64,000 nt of DNA from Bdellovibrio bacteriovorus (GTDB lineage: Bacteria > Bdellovibrionota > Bdellovibrionia > Bdellovibrionales > Bdellovibrionaceae), in contig NZ_CP102930.1 in the NCBI RefSeq assembly GCF_025558485.1, forward strand, positions 1,426,001 to 1,490,000, given 5' to 3'. The notes under the pieces are model-generated. The model had not been told where the DNA came from, did no database searches, and saw only the letters and a list, made by a program, of their open reading frames with translations. The position numbers were made by a program, and so were the translations under genes. This document shows, piece after piece, positions 2,485 through 10,749 of the stretch. How positions within the stretch are numbered: position 1 is the stretch's first letter; each line of letters opens with the position of its first letter.

Positions 2485-3632
2485 AACACCTCCGCCCAGA
2501 GAAGTTCTGCCGGATTTTTCTTGCACACATCTTTGATGACCAGACGTGTTTGCATCTTTTGGTCGGTAGTGCGACGGGACTGCAACCAGAAGTCCATGTT
2601 TTCAGAGCTGTCCTTACAAATTGCGGGAATTTGTGACAGGAACACAATGGGATCGCACTGGGTGCGTGTGGATGGAGCTTTGATAAATGGATCGTACACT
2701 TCGTTGGCCCGATTTTGATGACGGATCAAAAGGGTTTCGCATTCCATACGGGCATCAAGCATGTTCAAAGACACCAGGCGCGGAGTCCCGCTGGCCGCCG
2801 GATCAGTGGCCCACAGATAAGGGATCAATTGCAGGAAGATCAGCAGGCCGCCCAAAACCAGCGTGCTTTTTTGCTTTAAGATAAACGGATTCCATTCGGC
2901 TTCCCAGGGTTCTTTGCACAGGGGGATCAGGACAAAAAGACCCAAAAGCAGCAGCATCGTCAAAGGATAGAAATAACCCACGATGTGCCAGGAAAAGGCA
3001 TGGAATAAAACAAACTGAATAAGAACCACATGGCGAATCCAGGCTTTGGAACTGAAAAGCCCCACTACAAAAATACATTCCAGCAGAACCGCGTAGCTCA
3101 GACTGATGTGCTCAAGAGGCCCGGGCAGAAAGGTGGGATGAATCAGCGCCACGCCCGAAAGCCATTCCGGGTTCAGTTTAAGAACGCCCGCGCCCCAGTA
3201 GAAAATTCCCAGACAAAGAGGAATCAAGGTTTTCTTGTAAGGTGCAAACAGGAAAGCGCCATGAATGATAAAGCTCATGTAGTGATAGTTCCCCATCAGT
3301 CCATAAGAAAGACTGGTGAAGAAAATCTTCAATCCCAAAAGACCCAATAAGCCAGCATAGGCCCAGCGCACTTTACCGGCCACAAATAAGACCGCAGTGA
3401 TCACACCCAGCAGGGCGTAGATTTCCAGATAGCCTGCGGCCTGGGCTTCGGAAGAAAAGCGCAACGTCTGACAAAACGGAGCCCAAGGCCAGCACAGGGC
3501 CGAAGACACTTCACCGGCTTTGACCACCAGATCCAAAGACCGGTCCATCCAGAAGTATGCTGACAGGACGTGAGTTGCTGCCAGAAGGGCCCCATAAATT
3601 TGCAAGGCGCGTGACTGTAGAATTTCCTTCAT
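2481..3632 (-). CDS. HTTM-like multi-pass membrane protein (VKG-carboxylase related)
   Basis: 383 residues with about eight or more membrane segments. Features matching the HTTM (horizontally transferred transmembrane) family are an early GNYHYM...IIH segment, a positively charged KK turn, and FYWGAGVLKLNPEWLSG. This family is related to the membrane part of vitamin K-dependent gamma-glutamyl carboxylase; the bacterial substrates are mostly unknown. Start at 3632 is chosen from the AGGGAAG ribosome site and the ATGA overlap with the pentapeptide gene. The C-terminal 90 residues are soluble with four Cys. Coupled by a 4-base overlap to the propeller gene downstream. Confidence 0.65.
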   Translation of the reverse strand: MKEILQSRALQIYGALLAATHVLSAYFWMDRSLDLVVKAGEVSSALCWPWAPFCQTLRFSSEAQAAGYLEIYALLGVITAVLFVAGKVRWAYAGLLGLLGLKIFFTSLSYGLMGNYHYMSFIIHGAFLFAPYKKTLIPLCLGIFYWGAGVLKLNPEWLSGVALIHPTFLPGPLEHISLSYAVLLECIFVVGLFSSKAWIRHVVLIQFVLFHAFSWHIVGYFYPLTMLLLLGLFVLIPLCKEPWEAEWNPFILKQKSTLVLGGLLIFLQLIPYLWATDPAASGTPRLVSLNMLDARMECETLLIRHQNRANEVYDPFIKAPSTRTQCDPIVFLSQIPAICKDSSENMDFWLQSRRTTDQKMQTRLVIKDVCKKNPAELLWAEVL

Positions 3633-4168
3633 CGCACTTCCCTGGTTTGGAGCTTCCATTTTTTCAGTAAAGCGGGATGCACTGTTTTGGCGGAACTTTC
3701 ATCCAGAGTGCAGTTTTCAAAAGTGCTATTGATGAAATCAACCCGGCTTAAATCAGAATCTATAAAAGAGGTGTTGCGGAATGTACTGGCCAGAAAACGA
3801 CTGCCATCCAGACGCACGTTTGTGAAAAGAACATTTTCAAAAACACAAAGGCTGCATTTTAGTCCGGCCAGGTTGGAGTTTTTAAAACGCACCTCATGAA
3901 AGCGTGTTTTTAAGGCCTGCACCCCATTCAGTCGGGAATCCACAAAGTCGGAATTATCAAAAGACATCTGAAACCACGAGCTCAGAGTAAAATGACTGTT
4001 TTTGAATTCGCTGTTGATAACCTGAGAAAGGGCGAGAGGTCTTTCGGAGTATTCGACTTTATCTAATTTTTGACCACTCCAAGGGGAAGCGTTCAACGCC
4101 GCCGCATGAAGGGCGCAAGACACGGTCATGGTAATACTGAAAATGCCGAATAAATACCGAAGTCTCAT
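3629..4168 (-). CDS. Exported pentapeptide-repeat protein
   Basis: 179 residues. A signal peptide covers residues 1-23. From about residue 50 to 155 there are tandem pentapeptide-like units with Phe or Leu at the centre (for example SEFKN, SHFTL, TSFID, SDLSR, VDFIN), predicted to form a right-handed quadrilateral beta-helix. Exported pentapeptide proteins are usually structural or binding modules. First gene of a tightly overlapping operon (4-base overlaps) with the HTTM-like membrane protein and the PQQ-type propeller, which suggests one exported complex. Biochemical role not identifiable. Confidence 0.85.
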   Translation of the reverse strand: MRLRYLFGIFSITMTVSCALHAAALNASPWSGQKLDKVEYSERPLALSQVINSEFKNSHFTLSSWFQMSFDNSDFVDSRLNGVQALKTRFHEVRFKNSNLAGLKCSLCVFENVLFTNVRLDGSRFLASTFRNTSFIDSDLSRVDFINSTFENCTLDESSAKTVHPALLKKWKLQTREVR

Positions 4169-4242: not shown

Positions 4243-7200
4243 ATGATCAAGGGGCGTATCTTTATTCACATCATCATGGCAACCTTTCTTGCAGGCTGTA
4301 TGAATGCCGACCTGACGGTATTGTCCAGCAATCTGCAAAGCACCTTGGCTCTTCGTCCTGCTTATAAATCGACATCCACCATGAACATTCGCTGGAGCAC
4401 CAACGGCGGGTCTGTCCAGCCAAATTATTTCAAACTCGAATATTCTGCCGATGCGGGCAGCACCTGGTCTGTGGCGGAAGCCCACATCACTTCAGCGGGC
4501 TCTTATGACTGGCCTTTGGCGACACTGGCACCAGGAAATTACAAGGCTCGTTTGACTGCCGTGATCAATGAATCGGAAGAGACCATCATGCTGGGTGATT
4601 TCCTGATTGATGATCAGCCCCCGGTGGCGGGTATTCCTCAGACAGTGTCTGTGACCGAAGACACTCCGGCCAATTTTGTTTTAAGCACACCCACTGAAAA
4701 TGATCAGTATGAAGTCGTGATTGTCACCAGCCCCGGAAAAGGAACCTTATCCGGTTGTGGAGTCGGGGCCAGTCTGAATTGTACTTATGCTCCGCAACTG
4801 AATAATGAAGCTGATGATTCGTTCAGCTACAAGGTGGTTGATCGTGCGGGAAATGAATCTTCGGCGGTGACGGTGACGTTGGATGTTTTACCCGTGAACG
4901 ATCTTCCTGTGATCGGTACGCTGTCTTGTCCGTTGACGATCGGGGAAAATTACAATTATTCCTGTACGATCAGTGCAACAGATGTGGATCTGCCTTCACC
5001 CTTGACGTTAAGTTATTCTTTGGATGCGGCGACGACCTGTGGTGGCTGGTTGGGTATAAATGTGACAACCGGAGAGGTCAGTGGCACCCCCGCAGCGGCG
5101 CAGGTGGGAACAACCTGTCATGTGGCCGTGTATGCAGAGGACGATCAACTGGGGCAGAGCACTCGCTTTACCTGGGATATTTCCATCACTAATTCGGCAC
5201 CGATTGTGGTCGTGACGGGCGGGCCTTATGCGATTTCCGAAGATGCGCCATTCGCAGTGGTGATTCCCGCGGCCAATGTGTCTTCCATTGAGGAAGGCAC
5301 CAGCACTTACAGTCTGGTGACACCGACAGTGGCCGGGGATCGCTGTGAAGACTATGCGATGGCACCGGTATCATCCAATTACAGTATTGACGCCACCACA
5401 GGGGCTTTTTCTTTCCGTCCGGCTGCGGATTATGATGGTGTCTGTCAGATCCGTATTGCCTTAACGGATGCTTACCCTTCAACGGGGTATGCGGATGTGG
5501 CGATCACAGTCAGCAATGTGCAGGATGTGCCGGTGGTCTCCGCCAGCCTTGCACCGTGTTCGGCTTCTGCCACCGAGGATGTCAGCTATTCCTGTACTGT
5601 CATGGTTGTTGATCCTGATCCGGAAAATTTAACAATCACGCGGGATGTTTCGGACACCTGTTCCTGGCTGAATATCACGCCATCGGCAGACGGGCGATCT
5701 ATTGCTGTTAGCGGGACACCGGATGACACGCAGGTGGGAACTTGTCGTTTGGCTTTAAAGGCGACTGATCCCCTGGCGGCTTCAGACATGGAGTTTCAGG
5801 ATATCACTGTGGCGAATGCGGCACCAGCATTGACGTTGGGCACGCCCACTGTTTTGACAGAGGACGATCCGGCCTTTGCCAGTCTGGTGCAAGTCCTTAG
5901 TGACGCTCAGGTGTCTTCTTTGGATGAAGGTTTCGGGACATATTCTTTGGTTTATACAGGGTTGTCGGGGACGGCCTGCAACGACATCTCGGTGGTTGCA
6001 ACTCCGGTATCGGACGTTGTGATTGATGTCTCCACCGGAGCTGTCAGCATCAAGCCGCGTGCGGATTATTTTGGAACTTGTTATGCCAAAGTTCAGTTTG
6101 ATGATGGAAACGGGGCCGGGAACTCGATAGCACAGCAGGAAATTTCCATTATTGTTAATCCAGTTAATGATGCTCCGGCCATCACGGTGATTCCGGCAGA
6201 CCATGAAATTCTGCTGAATCCCACGGGCTCAACACCCTCTTCTTTCGCTCTGACTGTGGATATTGGGCCGGCCAATGAAAACAGCCAGCAGGTGCAGATG
6301 ATCTGCACGAATTCCAATCCATCCAGATTGATGGTGGACTGTTCACAGACCCGTGTCGGTGACGGCACCTTGACGGTGCTGTTGTCGGCGACAGCGGGAC
6401 TGGACACCTCAGCGGTTGTGACTGTGAAACTGAAGGACGATGCTGGTGGCACGGATGAATCCACAGTTGCCACAGTGAATGTCAGTATCACGGATGCCGT
6501 GGTGCTTGCAGCCATTGCGACGGACACCACCAATTACAATATTTATTCTCAGGCAGTCAGTCAGTACAACGGCACGGTGGCTTCTTCAAATCGCACCTTC
6601 GTGGTGACAGTTAACGGAGGCGTTAAAGTTTCCAGTGCCGATCCTTCTTTGCCTGCGATGCGAACCGGTTCCCTTTCAACAGGGGCCCGGGTGCGCCTGA
6701 TCAATAATGGCTGGATCGTTGGAGCTGCCGGTGCCGGAGGATTTGCTCCTGCGGGAACTGCGGGTGCCCAACGTATGGGGCAGCACGGTGGAACGGCTTT
6801 CAAGATTGATGATATTCACGCGCAAATCAGTATCTTAAATAACGGCATGATCTATGGCGGTGGCGGCGGTGGTGGGCGTGGCGGCACGGATAACAGTGAT
6901 GCCGGAGCCGGTGGTGCCGGAGGTATGGGTGAAGGACCTTCAAGTGCCGCAGTGGCGGGAACTGTTGGAGCCAGCGCGGGTGGTGCGGGCGGAACTTTCG
7001 CGACATCTTTAAGTGCGGGAACAACTCCTGCTGGAGATTATTCCCCTTCAAACGGAATTGCACCGACGCAGGGATCGGCCGGACAAGGTGGCAGTAGTTG
7101 TTTGATAGGTTCCGGTTTGGGAAATAATCCGGGTGAAGCGTACTTCGGGCGCGGTGGTTTTGGCGCAGGTTTCGGCGGTGGTGCGGGTGCCTGCTCCACG

Positions 7201-7575
7201 AAGTTTGGTGGTGGTGGAGGCGGCGGCCATTTCGGTGGTGGCGGTGGTTCAGGGGGACTGGCCGATCTGAATGACGGTGGTAACGTGAACACAGACACCA
7301 ATGGTTACAATGGTGGAAATGGCGGAGCGGCGATTGAAGTTCCGGCAGCCGTGTCGGTGCCAGCTGATATTGCCATTGAAATCATCCCGGGCGGCAGCAG
7401 TCAGATTGCAGGTTGTGTTTGGAATGATATTTCCGGAGTTTATCTTTCAAACGTGGCGAGCGACACAGACGTCAACAATCGTGTGTTGAGCTACTCTTCG
7501 ACGGTAAGTCAGAGTGTGAACAGTCCTTCCAGTCTGAAAATATGGTCCAACGGGCGCGGAAAAGCCTATCGATAA
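4243..7575 (+). CDS. Large mosaic lipoprotein: Ig/cadherin-like repeats with polyglycine tip
   Basis: 1110 residues. The signal ends at FLAGC (Cys 19), a good lipobox. Residues about 30-125 form an Fn3/Ig-like domain. About 130-215 is a tandem-95-type repeat (VTEDTPANF ... DSFSYKVVD). About 220-760 has further He_PIG/cadherin-like domains with paired Cys and PVNDLP/PVNDAP linkers. About 820-1010 is a glycine-rich region with NNGMIYGGGGGGG and other poly-Gly runs interrupted by charged residues. The last 75 residues form a folded cap with one Cys. The I-x-NNG-x-I-x-GGGG pattern resembles glycine-rich tips of phage host-recognition proteins, so a surface adhesin is likely. The ribosome site is weak (AAGG next to the ATG); a second in-frame ATG 11 codons in is possible. 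Confidence 0.8.
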   Translation: MIKGRIFIHIIMATFLAGCMNADLTVLSSNLQSTLALRPAYKSTSTMNIRWSTNGGSVQPNYFKLEYSADAGSTWSVAEAHITSAGSYDWPLATLAPGNYKARLTAVINESEETIMLGDFLIDDQPPVAGIPQTVSVTEDTPANFVLSTPTENDQYEVVIVTSPGKGTLSGCGVGASLNCTYAPQLNNEADDSFSYKVVDRAGNESSAVTVTLDVLPVNDLPVIGTLSCPLTIGENYNYSCTISATDVDLPSPLTLSYSLDAATTCGGWLGINVTTGEVSGTPAAAQVGTTCHVAVYAEDDQLGQSTRFTWDISITNSAPIVVVTGGPYAISEDAPFAVVIPAANVSSIEEGTSTYSLVTPTVAGDRCEDYAMAPVSSNYSIDATTGAFSFRPAADYDGVCQIRIALTDAYPSTGYADVAITVSNVQDVPVVSASLAPCSASATEDVSYSCTVMVVDPDPENLTITRDVSDTCSWLNITPSADGRSIAVSGTPDDTQVGTCRLALKATDPLAASDMEFQDITVANAAPALTLGTPTVLTEDDPAFASLVQVLSDAQVSSLDEGFGTYSLVYTGLSGTACNDISVVATPVSDVVIDVSTGAVSIKPRADYFGTCYAKVQFDDGNGAGNSIAQQEISIIVNPVNDAPAITVIPADHEILLNPTGSTPSSFALTVDIGPANENSQQVQMICTNSNPSRLMVDCSQTRVGDGTLTVLLSATAGLDTSAVVTVKLKDDAGGTDESTVATVNVSITDAVVLAAIATDTTNYNIYSQAVSQYNGTVASSNRTFVVTVNGGVKVSSADPSLPAMRTGSLSTGARVRLINNGWIVGAAGAGGFAPAGTAGAQRMGQHGGTAFKIDDIHAQISILNNGMIYGGGGGGGRGGTDNSDAGAGGAGGMGEGPSSAAVAGTVGASAGGAGGTFATSLSAGTTPAGDYSPSNGIAPTQGSAGQGGSSCLIGSGLGNNPGEAYFGRGGFGAGFGGGAGACSTKFGGGGGGGHFGGGGGSGGLADLNDGGNVNTDTNGYNGGNGGAAIEVPAAVSVPADIAIEIIPGGSSQIAGCVWNDISGVYLSNVASDTDVNNRVLSYSSTVSQSVNSPSSLKIWSNGRGKAYR

Positions 7576-7758: not shown

Positions 7759-9525
7759 GTGAGCAAAATTACCAAAAGTAGCACAGCTGAATATTTTGCT
7801 AAAAACCTCCAGCAGGTGGGTTTTTCATCTCCTTTAAAGGCTGTTTTGACGACTCTAAAAGAGGCCGTGGATAATTCTTTGGATGCCTGTGAGTCTGCGG
7901 GTATTCTGCCGGACCTTCTTGTGGAAATCTCCAAGGTGGGTGCCGGTTCCACTAAAAATACTGATTTAATTCGCATCGTTGTTGAAGACAACGGGCCGGG
8001 TATCGAGGGTGAAGATCTGGCGAAGGTTTACGGGGAGTATCTGGCTTCCTCTAAATTTGGTCGCGGACAGTGTTCTCGTGGTCAGCAGGGTATCGGTATT
8101 TCCGCAGCAACCACTTGGGCGCAAATGACCAATGCCCGTGGTGTAAGTGTTATTTCCAAGACTAAAAAAATGCGCAAAGCCATCTCCGCACAAGTGGATG
8201 TGGACATCAAATCCAACACCGGGGTTTTGAAAAACAAAGAAACTCTGGATTGGGATCGTGAACATGGAACGCGCGTTGAATTCGTACTGGATGGACGTAT
8301 TCAACTTAACGGCGACGGCGGTCTTTTGACTTACATTGAGGGCACTATTTTGGTGAACCCTCACATGACCATCACTTACAAACTGACCGATGGTGATTTT
8401 ATCACTGTCACTCGTGTCAGCACGGATGTTCCAAGAGTTCCAGAGGCTTCTTTGCCACATCCTCACACCTTCAAACTGGGAGAGTTTATCACTCATTCCA
8501 CTTTGTTCGGTAAAACCACTTTGTCCAAGTTCCTGAAAACGGGTTTTTCCCGTATTTCTGACCAGTCCATTTCTGATTTTGTGAAAAAAGGCCTGCCAAA
8601 AGGTCTTTTGGAAAAGCCTTTGACGGCGTTAAGTGAAGAGGATTTCAAAAAAGTCTTCCAGGCCGTACAAAACACAGACTTGATGGCACCAAGCACGAAG
8701 TCCGTTCTGACAGTGGGTGAAGAGGCGTTGTCCAAATCCATCACTCGTCTGGGGGAAATCGACTTCTTCGCGGTTGTGACCCGTAAACCGACCATTTGTG
8801 ACTTCAAACCAGTTGTGGTGGAAGTGGCATTGGCCCGTTTCAAAGACCGCAATCAACAAAATGACTCACCGGTGACTTTGCTTCGTTTTGCCAATCGTGT
8901 GCCGTTGCAATTCGATAAATCCGGTTGTGCGATCACCTGGGCGATTGAGTCCGTGAACTGGAAAGCCTATGGCCTGGGTCAGCCTAAAGACTCTTTGCCA
9001 CTGGGGCCGTACATCTTCGCGGTTTCCATTGTGTCTCCGTTCATCAAGTTTAAAAATGCCTCCAAGGAAACGATTGATGCTTCCGAGGAACTGGTTGCGG
9101 AAATCCGTTTGGCTTTGATCCAGGCAGGTCAAAAGCTGTCCCGTCACATCAAAAAAGAGGTGAAGGAAGCGGATCTGGAAAGAAAACTGGCTCACATCGA
9201 GCAGTTCGGTCCGATTCTGGTGGAGGGTTTGGCAAGAATCATCAAGGCGCCGGAAGCACGTAAGAAAAAAGCGGAAGAAGGTTTGAAGAAACTTTTGGGC
9301 CGTGATTCTGAAGCGGCGATAGCGGATCTGGAAGCGGCTGAATCCAAGTTGTTGGAGCAGAAAAAACGCGAAAAGAAAAAGGGCATTGATCACGGTGACG
9401 AAGATGAAGTCGATGTGATTTCCTCTGAAGACCTGGTGGAAGAGGCCTCAGCACCGCAAGGGACAAAGAAAACCACCACGAAAAAGACTGTAACCACTAA
9501 GAAAACCACTGGGAAGAAAAGCTAA
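7759..9525 (+). CDS. top6B: DNA topoisomerase VI subunit B
   Basis: 588 residues, GTG start at 7759. ATP-binding and transducer subunit of the type IIB topoisomerase, which cuts both DNA strands to relax or decatenate. GHKL fold: N-box E35-A-V-D-N39, DNGPG at 77-81, and SRGQQGIGIS at 106-115. An H2TH-like helical region spans about 245-305, then the transducer domain, with CAITWAIESVNWK at about 390 and LGQPKDSLPLGP containing the candidate switch lysine K410. The last 50 residues are a Lys/Thr-rich basic tail (repeats of TTKK) not typical of archaeal subunits, possibly DNA contacting. The stop shares one base with the start of top6A. Confidence 0.95.
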   Translation: MSKITKSSTAEYFAKNLQQVGFSSPLKAVLTTLKEAVDNSLDACESAGILPDLLVEISKVGAGSTKNTDLIRIVVEDNGPGIEGEDLAKVYGEYLASSKFGRGQCSRGQQGIGISAATTWAQMTNARGVSVISKTKKMRKAISAQVDVDIKSNTGVLKNKETLDWDREHGTRVEFVLDGRIQLNGDGGLLTYIEGTILVNPHMTITYKLTDGDFITVTRVSTDVPRVPEASLPHPHTFKLGEFITHSTLFGKTTLSKFLKTGFSRISDQSISDFVKKGLPKGLLEKPLTALSEEDFKKVFQAVQNTDLMAPSTKSVLTVGEEALSKSITRLGEIDFFAVVTRKPTICDFKPVVVEVALARFKDRNQQNDSPVTLLRFANRVPLQFDKSGCAITWAIESVNWKAYGLGQPKDSLPLGPYIFAVSIVSPFIKFKNASKETIDASEELVAEIRLALIQAGQKLSRHIKKEVKEADLERKLAHIEQFGPILVEGLARIIKAPEARKKKAEEGLKKLLGRDSEAAIADLEAAESKLLEQKKREKKKGIDHGDEDEVDVISSEDLVEEASAPQGTKKTTTKKTVTTKKTTGKKS

Positions 9526-10688
9526 TGGGCAAACTACTCAGCATTCGCGAATTAAAAATTGATATTCCTAAAGAAGCCCGCATTCTTGCAGATAAAATGC
9601 TGAAGGATCTGGAATCTTCCAAACGTCCGGTTCTTGAAGCCGTGAAGACTTCTTTGGACAACTCTTTGTACAACTCCAAGGTCGGTTATCTGACTCCGGG
9701 GGATAAGGTTGTTCGTACCGAGCTGAACGTGTCTTCTGTGCAAAAACTGGCGCGTGTGGTGTTCGTTTTGGAAATCCTTCTGAATAATCTGGAAAAAGGC
9801 GCAGTCAACACCAAGCGTGAGCTTTATTACATGTGTAAAGGTCTGATCAAAGGCAATCCACGTTTGAAGCCTTTGGACTTTGATGACCAGCCGGAATCTG
9901 ATGCGATCATCGATTTTATTGGTGATATGCTGGAAGTTTACCGTGAAGAACTGAACTGCTTCGCCAATGATCGCGGTGGTCAGACTTATTCCCAGCAATT
10001 GATCGTGACTGAAACTTTGGCCGATGGCGATAAAGCCGTGGTGGATCTTTCCACACTGGGAACATCTCCATTCCAGCCAAAGAACAAGCCACAATCATTG
10101 AAACTAAGAGCGAAAAAGAAAATCGACTTCTGTCTGATTGTGGAATCCGAAGGTACCGCGAATACGCTGGTAACCATGGGTTTCACCAAACGTAATAACT
10201 GTATCGTGATGGGTGCTCAAGGGGTTCCGTCCAACGGTGTGCGTGGCTGGTCAAAACTGATTCAGGACGAATTGGATGTTCCGATGTACTTCTTCGGGGA
10301 TCTCGATGCTTATACATTGCAAAACATCTACCGTACTTTGAAAGCCGGTTCTGCGGCGTCTTTGATCCGTAATGCTGACTTCTCCGCCCCGAATGTAAAA
10401 TTCCTGGGTGTGTTGCCGGAAGACGTGAAGAAATACGATCTGCCTCATTACAAAGTGAAAGAATCCGATCCAGCCGAAGCCCGTGCTTTGAAAAAAGCCA
10501 AGGATGCTTTGGAAAACGATCCGTTCTTCCTGGATAAAAAGAATAAAAATCTGGCGGATATTCTGCGCTGGTTGATCAAAGAAAAGGTCCGTTGCGAACA
10601 GCAATCCTTCTTCTCTGTTGACCCGAACGATCCAATCAAGACAGAAAAACTGATTCTTGAGAAAATCAAACGCGGATCTTACGTCTAA
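9525..10688 (+). CDS. top6A: DNA topoisomerase VI subunit A (Spo11-like)
   Basis: 387 residues. Cleavage subunit of topoisomerase VI. The winged-helix active site reads NTKRELYYMCKG with the nucleophilic Tyr at 101 or 102. The Toprim domain carries LIVESEG (Glu 207/209) and GDLDAY (Asp 259 and 261), the acidic set that holds magnesium. Length fits the family (about 360-390). Translationally coupled to top6B through TAATG. All key residues are present, so an active A2B2 enzyme is expected. Topoisomerase VI is mainly archaeal and plant, with scattered bacterial examples, so horizontal origin is a reasonable inference. Confidence 0.95.
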   Translation: MGKLLSIRELKIDIPKEARILADKMLKDLESSKRPVLEAVKTSLDNSLYNSKVGYLTPGDKVVRTELNVSSVQKLARVVFVLEILLNNLEKGAVNTKRELYYMCKGLIKGNPRLKPLDFDDQPESDAIIDFIGDMLEVYREELNCFANDRGGQTYSQQLIVTETLADGDKAVVDLSTLGTSPFQPKNKPQSLKLRAKKKIDFCLIVESEGTANTLVTMGFTKRNNCIVMGAQGVPSNGVRGWSKLIQDELDVPMYFFGDLDAYTLQNIYRTLKAGSAASLIRNADFSAPNVKFLGVLPEDVKKYDLPHYKVKESDPAEARALKKAKDALENDPFFLDKKNKNLADILRWLIKEKVRCEQQSFFSVDPNDPIKTEKLILEKIKRGSYV

Positions 10689-10715: not shown

Positions 10716-10749
10716 AAAGCCCCTGTCCTCATGGATGGGGGCTTTTTTA
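10716..10749 (+). terminator. Terminator of the top6BA operon
   Basis: AAAGCCCC pairs with GGGGGCTTT around a TGTCCTCATGGAT loop, followed by a run of T, 28 bases after the top6A stop. Confidence 0.85.

Follow-up and report, generated by a model that had tools for sequence, protein, structure and literature searches.

An intact topoisomerase VI operon in Bdellovibrio bacteriovorus and its probable role in place of topoisomerase IV

Introduction

The topoisomerase VI (topo VI) of Bdellovibrio has already been published (PMC11302465, PMC11318664). Allen and Maxwell listed B. bacteriovorus in 2024 among the topo VI bacteria of groups without topoisomerase IV (topo IV), counted Bdellovibrio as one of 17 families that combine gyrase with topo VI, and left the purpose of the bacterial enzyme as a question (PMC11302465). 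The topo VI of M. mazei prefers decatenation (PMC8837201), and is stated, as unpublished data, to complement an E. coli parE mutant (PMC11302465). Here we describe the two topo VI genes at positions 7759-10688 of a 64-kb stretch of B. bacteriovorus DNA (the window), which is part of a 3.34-Mb genome with a listed completeness of 91% despite being a single contig. The product of these genes is probably a decatenase that stands in for topo IV. What is new is the picture across the phylum, a second type IIA enzyme in the Bacteriovorax family, and an inventory of the organism's own genome with one gyrase and one topoisomerase I.

The operon and its two products

The top6B gene (7759..9525, plus strand; 588 amino acids, GTG start) is followed directly by top6A (9525..10688, plus strand; 387 amino acids, ATG start). 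A preliminary description, made from the letters of the DNA, had called this a complete topo VI operon with adjacent subunits sharing one base, and that base is 9525, in the TAATG (9523..9527, plus strand) where the top6B stop meets the top6A start. Every Pfam match exceeded its cut-off, with Topo-VIb_trans (PF09239) at 158 bits, HATPase_c_3 at 35 and HATPase_c at 34 in Top6B, and TOP6A-Spo11_Toprim at 134 and TP6A_N at 54 (PF04406, PF21180) in Top6A. The NCBIfam equivalogs NF003218 (538.7 bits, cut-off 274), TIGR01052 (393, cut-off 380.7) and, for Top6A, NF003335 (483, cut-off 424) were likewise exceeded; in a sample of relatives confined to the class, NF003335 had matches in 114 of 118 genomes, above the cut-off in 61. 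Sequence searches of the PDB matched the archaeal counterparts, which were M. mazei 2q2e for Top6B (E 1.2e-87) and 1d3y for Top6A (E 2.2e-34). The family is defined in part by ATP-dependent strand passage, with cleavage that leaves 2-nt overhangs; those of its defining features that sequence and model can show were found: the Top6A tyrosine and Toprim domain, the Top6B GHKL domain and transducer lysine, an H2TH-like block, and paired genes. As far as sequence and a structural model can confirm it, an intact topo VI operon with its catalytic motifs is therefore present in a bacterium.

The predicted architecture of Top6B begins with a GHKL ATPase region (7780..8433, plus strand; approximately residues 8-225, edges approximate) that contains DNGPG at residues 77-81 and RGQQGIG at 107-113. 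An H2TH-like helical region follows (8476..8673, plus strand; residues ~240-305, edges again approximate), assigned from the helices of the model and the full-length match to Top6B structures, while a separate H2TH profile gave no match. Known Top6B chains carry H2TH at this place, between GHKL and transducer (PMC11302465). The meiotic topo VIB-like proteins lack it. The transducer domain (8689..9183, plus strand; residues 311-475; PF09239) includes a WKxY motif at 401-404, which is a DNA contact in M. mazei topo VI (PMC13040014). The AlphaFold model of Top6B (mean predicted local distance difference test, pLDDT, 75.7; predicted template modelling score 0.67; alignment of 32 sequences) comprises the GHKL domain, the H2TH-like helices, a transducer whose long stalk helix spans 443-494, and a disordered end at 542-588. 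The putative switch residue of the transducer is Lys436, which we take to be the switch lysine. A fold search of the PDB with this model returned only Top6B chains in its first 16 rows (E 2e-44 to 6e-32), including those of M. mazei and S. shibatae.

In Top6A, the TP6A_N region (9741..9956, plus strand; residues 73-144) precedes the Toprim domain (10128..10631, plus strand; residues 202-369), which carries Glu207 and Asp259-x-Asp261. Tyr102, encoded at 9828-9830, is the likely nucleophile, because its partner in the alignment is chain position 35 of 1d3y, presumably Tyr103 of the M. jannaschii enzyme. The preliminary description held that all catalytic residues are kept (GHKL boxes, Tyr 101/102, the Toprim Glu and Asp-x-Asp), and the alignments agree. 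Residues E35, D38, N39, D77-N-G-P-G81, R107-G-Q-Q-G-I-G113, W401/Y404 and K436 are invariant in 32 bacterial Top6B sequences, as are R98, E99, Y101, Y102, E207, D259, D261 and E358 in 25 Top6A sequences, two of them haloarchaeal.

The gene arrangement was compared in related loci, namely the best 80 of 131 loci (orthologues at 72-96% identity); six of these have no recovered Top6B open reading frame (ORF), which leaves 74 for counts of spacing and tail. The one-base overlap is not conserved, a spacing of -1 being found in two of the 74. With both genes on the plus strand, and measuring from the start codon nearest the top6B stop, the spacing lies between -17 and +82 bases in 72 loci and is 287 and 380 in the remaining two.

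The end of Top6B is a disordered tail (9382..9522, plus strand; residues 542-588, pLDDT <50), in which an acidic part (542-566; 10 acidic and no basic residues) is followed by a Lys/Thr part (566-588; 8 Lys and no acidic residues). This had previously been described as a 50-residue Lys/Thr tail unlike the archaeal ones. The Lys/Thr end is real, but it makes up 23 residues of a 47-residue disordered tail; the unlikeness holds in that three Top6B ends from haloarchaea, used for comparison, are acidic, with a charge of -3 each. The net charge of the last 20 residues is at least +5 in 118 of 119 near relatives among the matches listed (120 less the window's own Top6B) and in 42 of the 74 wider loci, so that the basic end is kept among near relatives and variable further out rather than generally conserved. 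Over the last 40 residues, which include the acidic linker, the median charge in the near relatives listed is 0. Nor is such an end unique to Top6B, for the topoisomerase I of the same genome (match C1:637938-639239) has a long Lys/Ala-rich C-terminal tail. Gyrase ends in four loci are not Lys-rich.

Type II topoisomerases in the genome and in the phylum

A profile search of the organism's own genome gave one match each for PF00521, PF00204 and PF01131. The first is gyrase A, with the GyrA box QKRGGKG (NCBIfam gyrA 1137 bits, cut-off 877), and the second is gyrase B (983 bits, cut-off 882). The third, an ORF of 906 amino acids, is topoisomerase I (topA_bact 788, cut-off 456) and not topB (216 bits, cut-off 516). 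With all three single matches assigned in this way, no topo IV (a second GyrA/GyrB-type pair without a GyrA box) was detected by PF00521 and PF00204, and no topoisomerase III by PF01131.

The survey of the phylum covered 368 genomes: 143 of Bdellovibrio's own class, 129 of a family (f12) that includes the predators Bacteriovorax and Halobacteriovorax and was placed by name, and 96 others. The class name for this Bacteriovorax family is Bacteriovoracia (PMC11390915). Top6A was found in 212 and Top6B in 211 of all genomes. Within its own class topo VI is a core gene: each subunit occurs in 135 of 143 genomes, at least one of them in 139, and both in 131. The enzyme, best known from archaea and plants, had been called typical of these and only scattered in bacteria; within this class it is less scattered than that implied. 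A single PF00521 match was present in 126 genomes of the class, two in 5, and none in 12 (assemblies 57-93% complete). The 96 other genomes include 77 with Top6A, 76 with Top6B and 77 with either, and neither subunit was found in any of the 129 genomes of the Bacteriovorax family.

Some other families depart from this pattern. Two PF00521 matches occur in three of the four genomes of family f17, where the one paralogue examined (G297, L134:616-2928) is a GyrA-like protein of 770 amino acids that lacks a GyrA box and adjoins a GyrB-like gene. It scores 715.8 bits against a cut-off of 654 for the general subfamily model PRK05561 and falls below the gyrA and parC cut-offs; it is possibly an independent topo IV. 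Families f15, f16 and f18 are represented by nine genomes of 1.2-2.0 Mb (G287-G294, G299) in which gyrase is the sole type II topoisomerase match.

A second type IIA enzyme in the Bacteriovorax family

At least two PF00521 matches were present in 107 of the 129 Bacteriovorax-family genomes. In all six genomes chosen for examination, the second ORF encodes about 481 amino acids, lacks a GyrA box and lies directly 3' of a GyrB-like ORF; in G043 the pair (P0121/P0122) occupies L139:2-1387 and 1402-2844 and has no C-terminal domain (CTD). With P0121 as query (E<=1e-50), the enzyme was found in 114 of the 129 genomes of the family and in none of the 239 other genomes. The 15 genomes of the family without it at this threshold are 62-98% complete. 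In one (G022) a GyrA-level match is accompanied by a piece of 75% identity, 13 have matches at the GyrA level only (G079 with two weaker ones as well), and G111 has nothing.

The G043 pair falls below every NCBIfam cut-off (the best scores are 188.7 against 654 and 243.5 against 740, with the parC and parE models lower), and it matches PHROG families phrog_551 (DNA topoisomerase II, 366.6 bits) and phrog_543 (large subunit, 331.4). Its best PDB matches are eukaryotic Top2 (125-133 bits), with a topo IV A subunit at 121.5 and a phage-type medium subunit at 117.7. In a tree that bears on a possible affinity to T4-type phage topoisomerase II, the enzyme forms a separate clade, with gyrases on one side and a group of phage and yeast sequences on the other, at a point where long branches meet. 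Its pairwise scores overlap, at 137-165 bits for three phages and 127-152 bits for gyrase A. The R-Y-I-E nucleophile box is kept in the 121 A subunits looked at. The end of the A subunit is Lys-rich in all 120 relatives among the matches listed, and both subunits end in this way in four of the six loci examined. Public records name the protein gyrase A, topoisomerase or hypothetical protein. No paper on this second enzyme was recognised in the open-licence PMC literature; a Bacteriovorax gyrA is mentioned in PMC12642874.

Topo VI and the Bacteriovorax-family enzyme were never found in the same genome among the 368, and 38 genomes have neither. This mutual exclusion is a strong hint, and suggests that the place occupied by topo IV in most bacteria is taken here by topo VI.

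Proposed function

Because no topo IV or topoisomerase III was found, because topo VI and the Bacteriovorax-family enzyme exclude each other, and because topo VI is spread through the class, we consider it probable that the top6BA product is the cell's dedicated decatenase, acting in place of topo IV. The enzyme would consist of two A and two B subunits. Once ATP is bound, Top6B would clamp its GHKL domains round a DNA crossing, and the transducer, through Lys436, would relay this closure to Top6A. There, Tyr102, with Mg held by Glu207, Asp259 and Asp261, would cut one duplex; the second duplex would cross the break, which would then be resealed. A flexible DNA tether may be provided by the basic end of the Top6B tail. 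In the Bdellovibrio filament, the reaction would unlink sister chromosomes before septation, and the single gyrase would keep the DNA negatively supercoiled. That the enzyme is active, which substrate it prefers, what the tail does and when in the life cycle it acts are all inferred.

Several observations weigh against this proposal. The exclusion of the two enzymes is a clade-level pattern, with few independent events and mainly one clade, the Bacteriovorax family, so that a Fisher test on it does not yield a fair probability. One genome of the class that is 97% complete (G161) lacks both subunits and any second type IIA match, and two others (G201, 100%, and G264, 99%) have Top6B with no Top6A match and no second type IIA match. 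The pair is not always together, for in G200 Top6A and Top6B lie on separate contigs. Topo VI and a second type IIA match are both missing from families f15, f16 and f18, so that this phylum may need no type II enzyme other than gyrase. Conversely, one genome with topo VI (G366, family f29; L137/L142) also has a second GyrA-like ORF; this is 946 amino acids long, with an extra stretch that splits the PF00521 match at position 171, and a normal GyrA lies elsewhere. The ORF could reflect an insertion or intein, or contamination. Data on activity, expression or essentiality of Bdellovibrio topo VI were not found in the open-licence PMC literature. Finally, a topo IV is given for B. bacteriovorus in PMC11318664, where Top II is Bd2865, Top IV is Bd0005 and topo VI is Bd2864. 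Since the first and last of these numbers are adjacent and the genome studied here has one gyrase and one top6BA pair, Bd2864 and Bd2865 probably stand for both subunits of topo VI, and Bd0005 probably for gyrase.

The families with gyrase as their sole type II match suggest that segregation can proceed without a second enzyme, and topo VI is able to relax supercoils. It is thus conceivable, though unlikely, that topo VI mainly removes positive supercoils ahead of replication forks and RNA polymerase as a helper of gyrase, which would itself decatenate. Positive supercoils are, however, already removed by gyrase, and the M. mazei enzyme relaxes DNA only at a concentration some 10 times that at which it decatenates (PMC8837201).

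Returning to the decatenase proposal, its extension to the whole phylum is about an even bet. The phylum may have swapped out topo IV entirely, and more than once: Bdellovibrionia and most other families would have a deep and separate topo VI lineage with a charged tail, a planctomycete-type topo VI would serve one further family (f28) and probably another (f19), and its counterpart in the Bacteriovorax family would be a previously undescribed phage/eukaryote-like type IIA enzyme without a CTD and with Lys-rich tails. If so, the decatenase slot would be freely exchangeable in builders of multi-chromosome filaments, the gyrase slot would not, and the Lys-rich tails would be a shared adaptation.

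Neighbourhood, mobility and other alternatives

A terminator-like hairpin with a T run after it lies downstream of top6A (10716..10745, plus strand; 13 pairs, 7 of them G-C) and is the likely end of the top6BA transcription unit; this is a prediction from a scan that gave 8 sites where 5.1 are expected by chance. Across the 80 related loci (E<=1e-10) top6B was found in 79 and top6A in 80, whereas none of the five window genes upstream (66 loci with more than 1.5 kb upstream) or the next two downstream (63 loci with more than 1.5 kb downstream) was found in any. No other window gene between 603 and 20754 is common to more than three of the 80 loci, although some flanks are short. The neighbourhood accordingly offers no conserved clue to function, and a pair that stays intact and together amid changing neighbours fits the picture of a core function. 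Just upstream lies a 1110-amino-acid protein that combines bacterial Ig with cadherin-like domains and begins like a lipoprotein (4243-7575, plus strand), and somewhat further off a pentapeptide-repeat protein (3629-4168, minus strand); both are without a homologue in the 80 loci. Some pentapeptide-repeat proteins bind gyrase.

A mobile origin was considered and set aside. Neither subunit matched the phage collection or a PHROG, and none of 19 pattern stretches in the viral-contig scan was confirmed. The plasmid matches are distant: three haloarchaeal ones for Top6A, at 26-28% identity, and the same three records plus a weak cyanobacterial one for Top6B. The latter (CP143530.1, 431-1036; 28% identity over 35% of the query) lies on a 15-kb Synechococcus plasmid where no gene is annotated.

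These results bear on the preliminary suggestion that topo VI, in a predator, could handle host (prey) DNA or DNA associated with the septum. The nearest named relatives mark the genome as that of a Bdellovibrio, and multi-chromosome filaments need unlinking. The distribution across the 368 genomes nevertheless leads us to reject a tool of predation as very improbable: the predators of the Bacteriovorax family have neither subunit, at least one subunit occurs in 77 of the 96 genomes outside both that family and the class, and the lack of phage matches, of close plasmid matches and of shared flanking genes points the same way. Topo VI likely has a housekeeping role rather than that of a predator's weapon.

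Just as improbable is a Spo11-like or defence-like enzyme that makes breaks without strand passage. Top6A is related to Spo11, and distant Toprim kin act in Wadjet and Gabija defence (PMC13040014), but the same operon has a full Top6B, in which the GHKL domain, the H2TH-like region and the transducer are present and the ATPase residues invariant, and a Pfam scan of nine neighbours named no defence gene (the PADLOC library was not run). The archaeal distribution of the enzyme type might suggest a recent transfer or a decaying copy, an idea with a negligible chance that the sequences themselves refute, given intact motifs (which also dispose of a pseudogene), orthologues 72-96% identical in the best 80 of 131 loci, and a single clade in both subunit trees.

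Comparison with known systems

Should topo VI be the sole decatenase apart from gyrase, B. bacteriovorus would be a tractable bacterium for asking what a bacterial topo VI does. The phylum is also a natural experiment, in which two predator groups of similar life style carry different enzymes, topo VI in Bdellovibrio and another type II enzyme in the Bacteriovorax family; the latter, labelled gyrase in many public records, merits a study of its own.

The position of the B. bacteriovorus Top6B was judged likely anomalous in PMC11302465. In the trees built here, Top6A and Top6B of the Bdellovibrio type each form one fully supported, long-stemmed clade, a deep lineage of their own that stands outside the f28 type plus archaea. 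The two trees agree on this, with sampling that is class-wide but small for archaea (six archaeal rows for A and five for B, S. shibatae being a long branch, with no planctomycete Top6B and no f19 Top6A). The planctomycete-like topo VI of f28 (G362; L084, L119) equals that of Bdellovibrio in gene order and domains and differs in forming a separate clade, in lacking the Lys/Thr tail, and in sequence (32% identity for A, 35% for B). Its Top6A has relatives at 73-75% identity in Scalindua, Brocadiales, Planctomycetota, Eisenbacteria and Parcubacteria. The single f19 genome (G300; L114) probably carries the same type, since profile scores and, loosely, the Top6B tree group it with f28.

The Bacteriovorax-family enzyme appears to fill the same slot as Bdellovibrio topo VI and also has Lys-rich ends, but it is a type IIA enzyme with an A subunit of about 480 amino acids, and by profile is nearest to phage topoisomerase II. 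Topo IV (ParC/ParE) would share the proposed job of decatenation and differs as a type IIA enzyme with another DNA gate. Topoisomerase VIII occurs in free or integrated plasmids (PMC11302465), whereas the genes studied here lie on the main contig, are class-wide and have no close plasmid match. The best fold match is M. mazei topo VI (2q2e, 9o0g), with equal domains and active-site residues; it shows 32-34% identity to the Bdellovibrio enzyme in fold alignments, has DGDPW in Top6A where Bdellovibrio has DLDAY, and ends in an immunoglobulin-like domain (PMC11302465) in place of the acidic/basic disordered tail. Closest of all is the published topo VI of B. bacteriovorus, to whose Top6B the window's is up to 97% identical in public entries of that name. 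No essential difference from the enzyme of PMC11302465 and PMC11318664 is apparent, and the combination of gyrase and topo VI without topo IV is the one to be gathered for this species from the text of PMC11302465.

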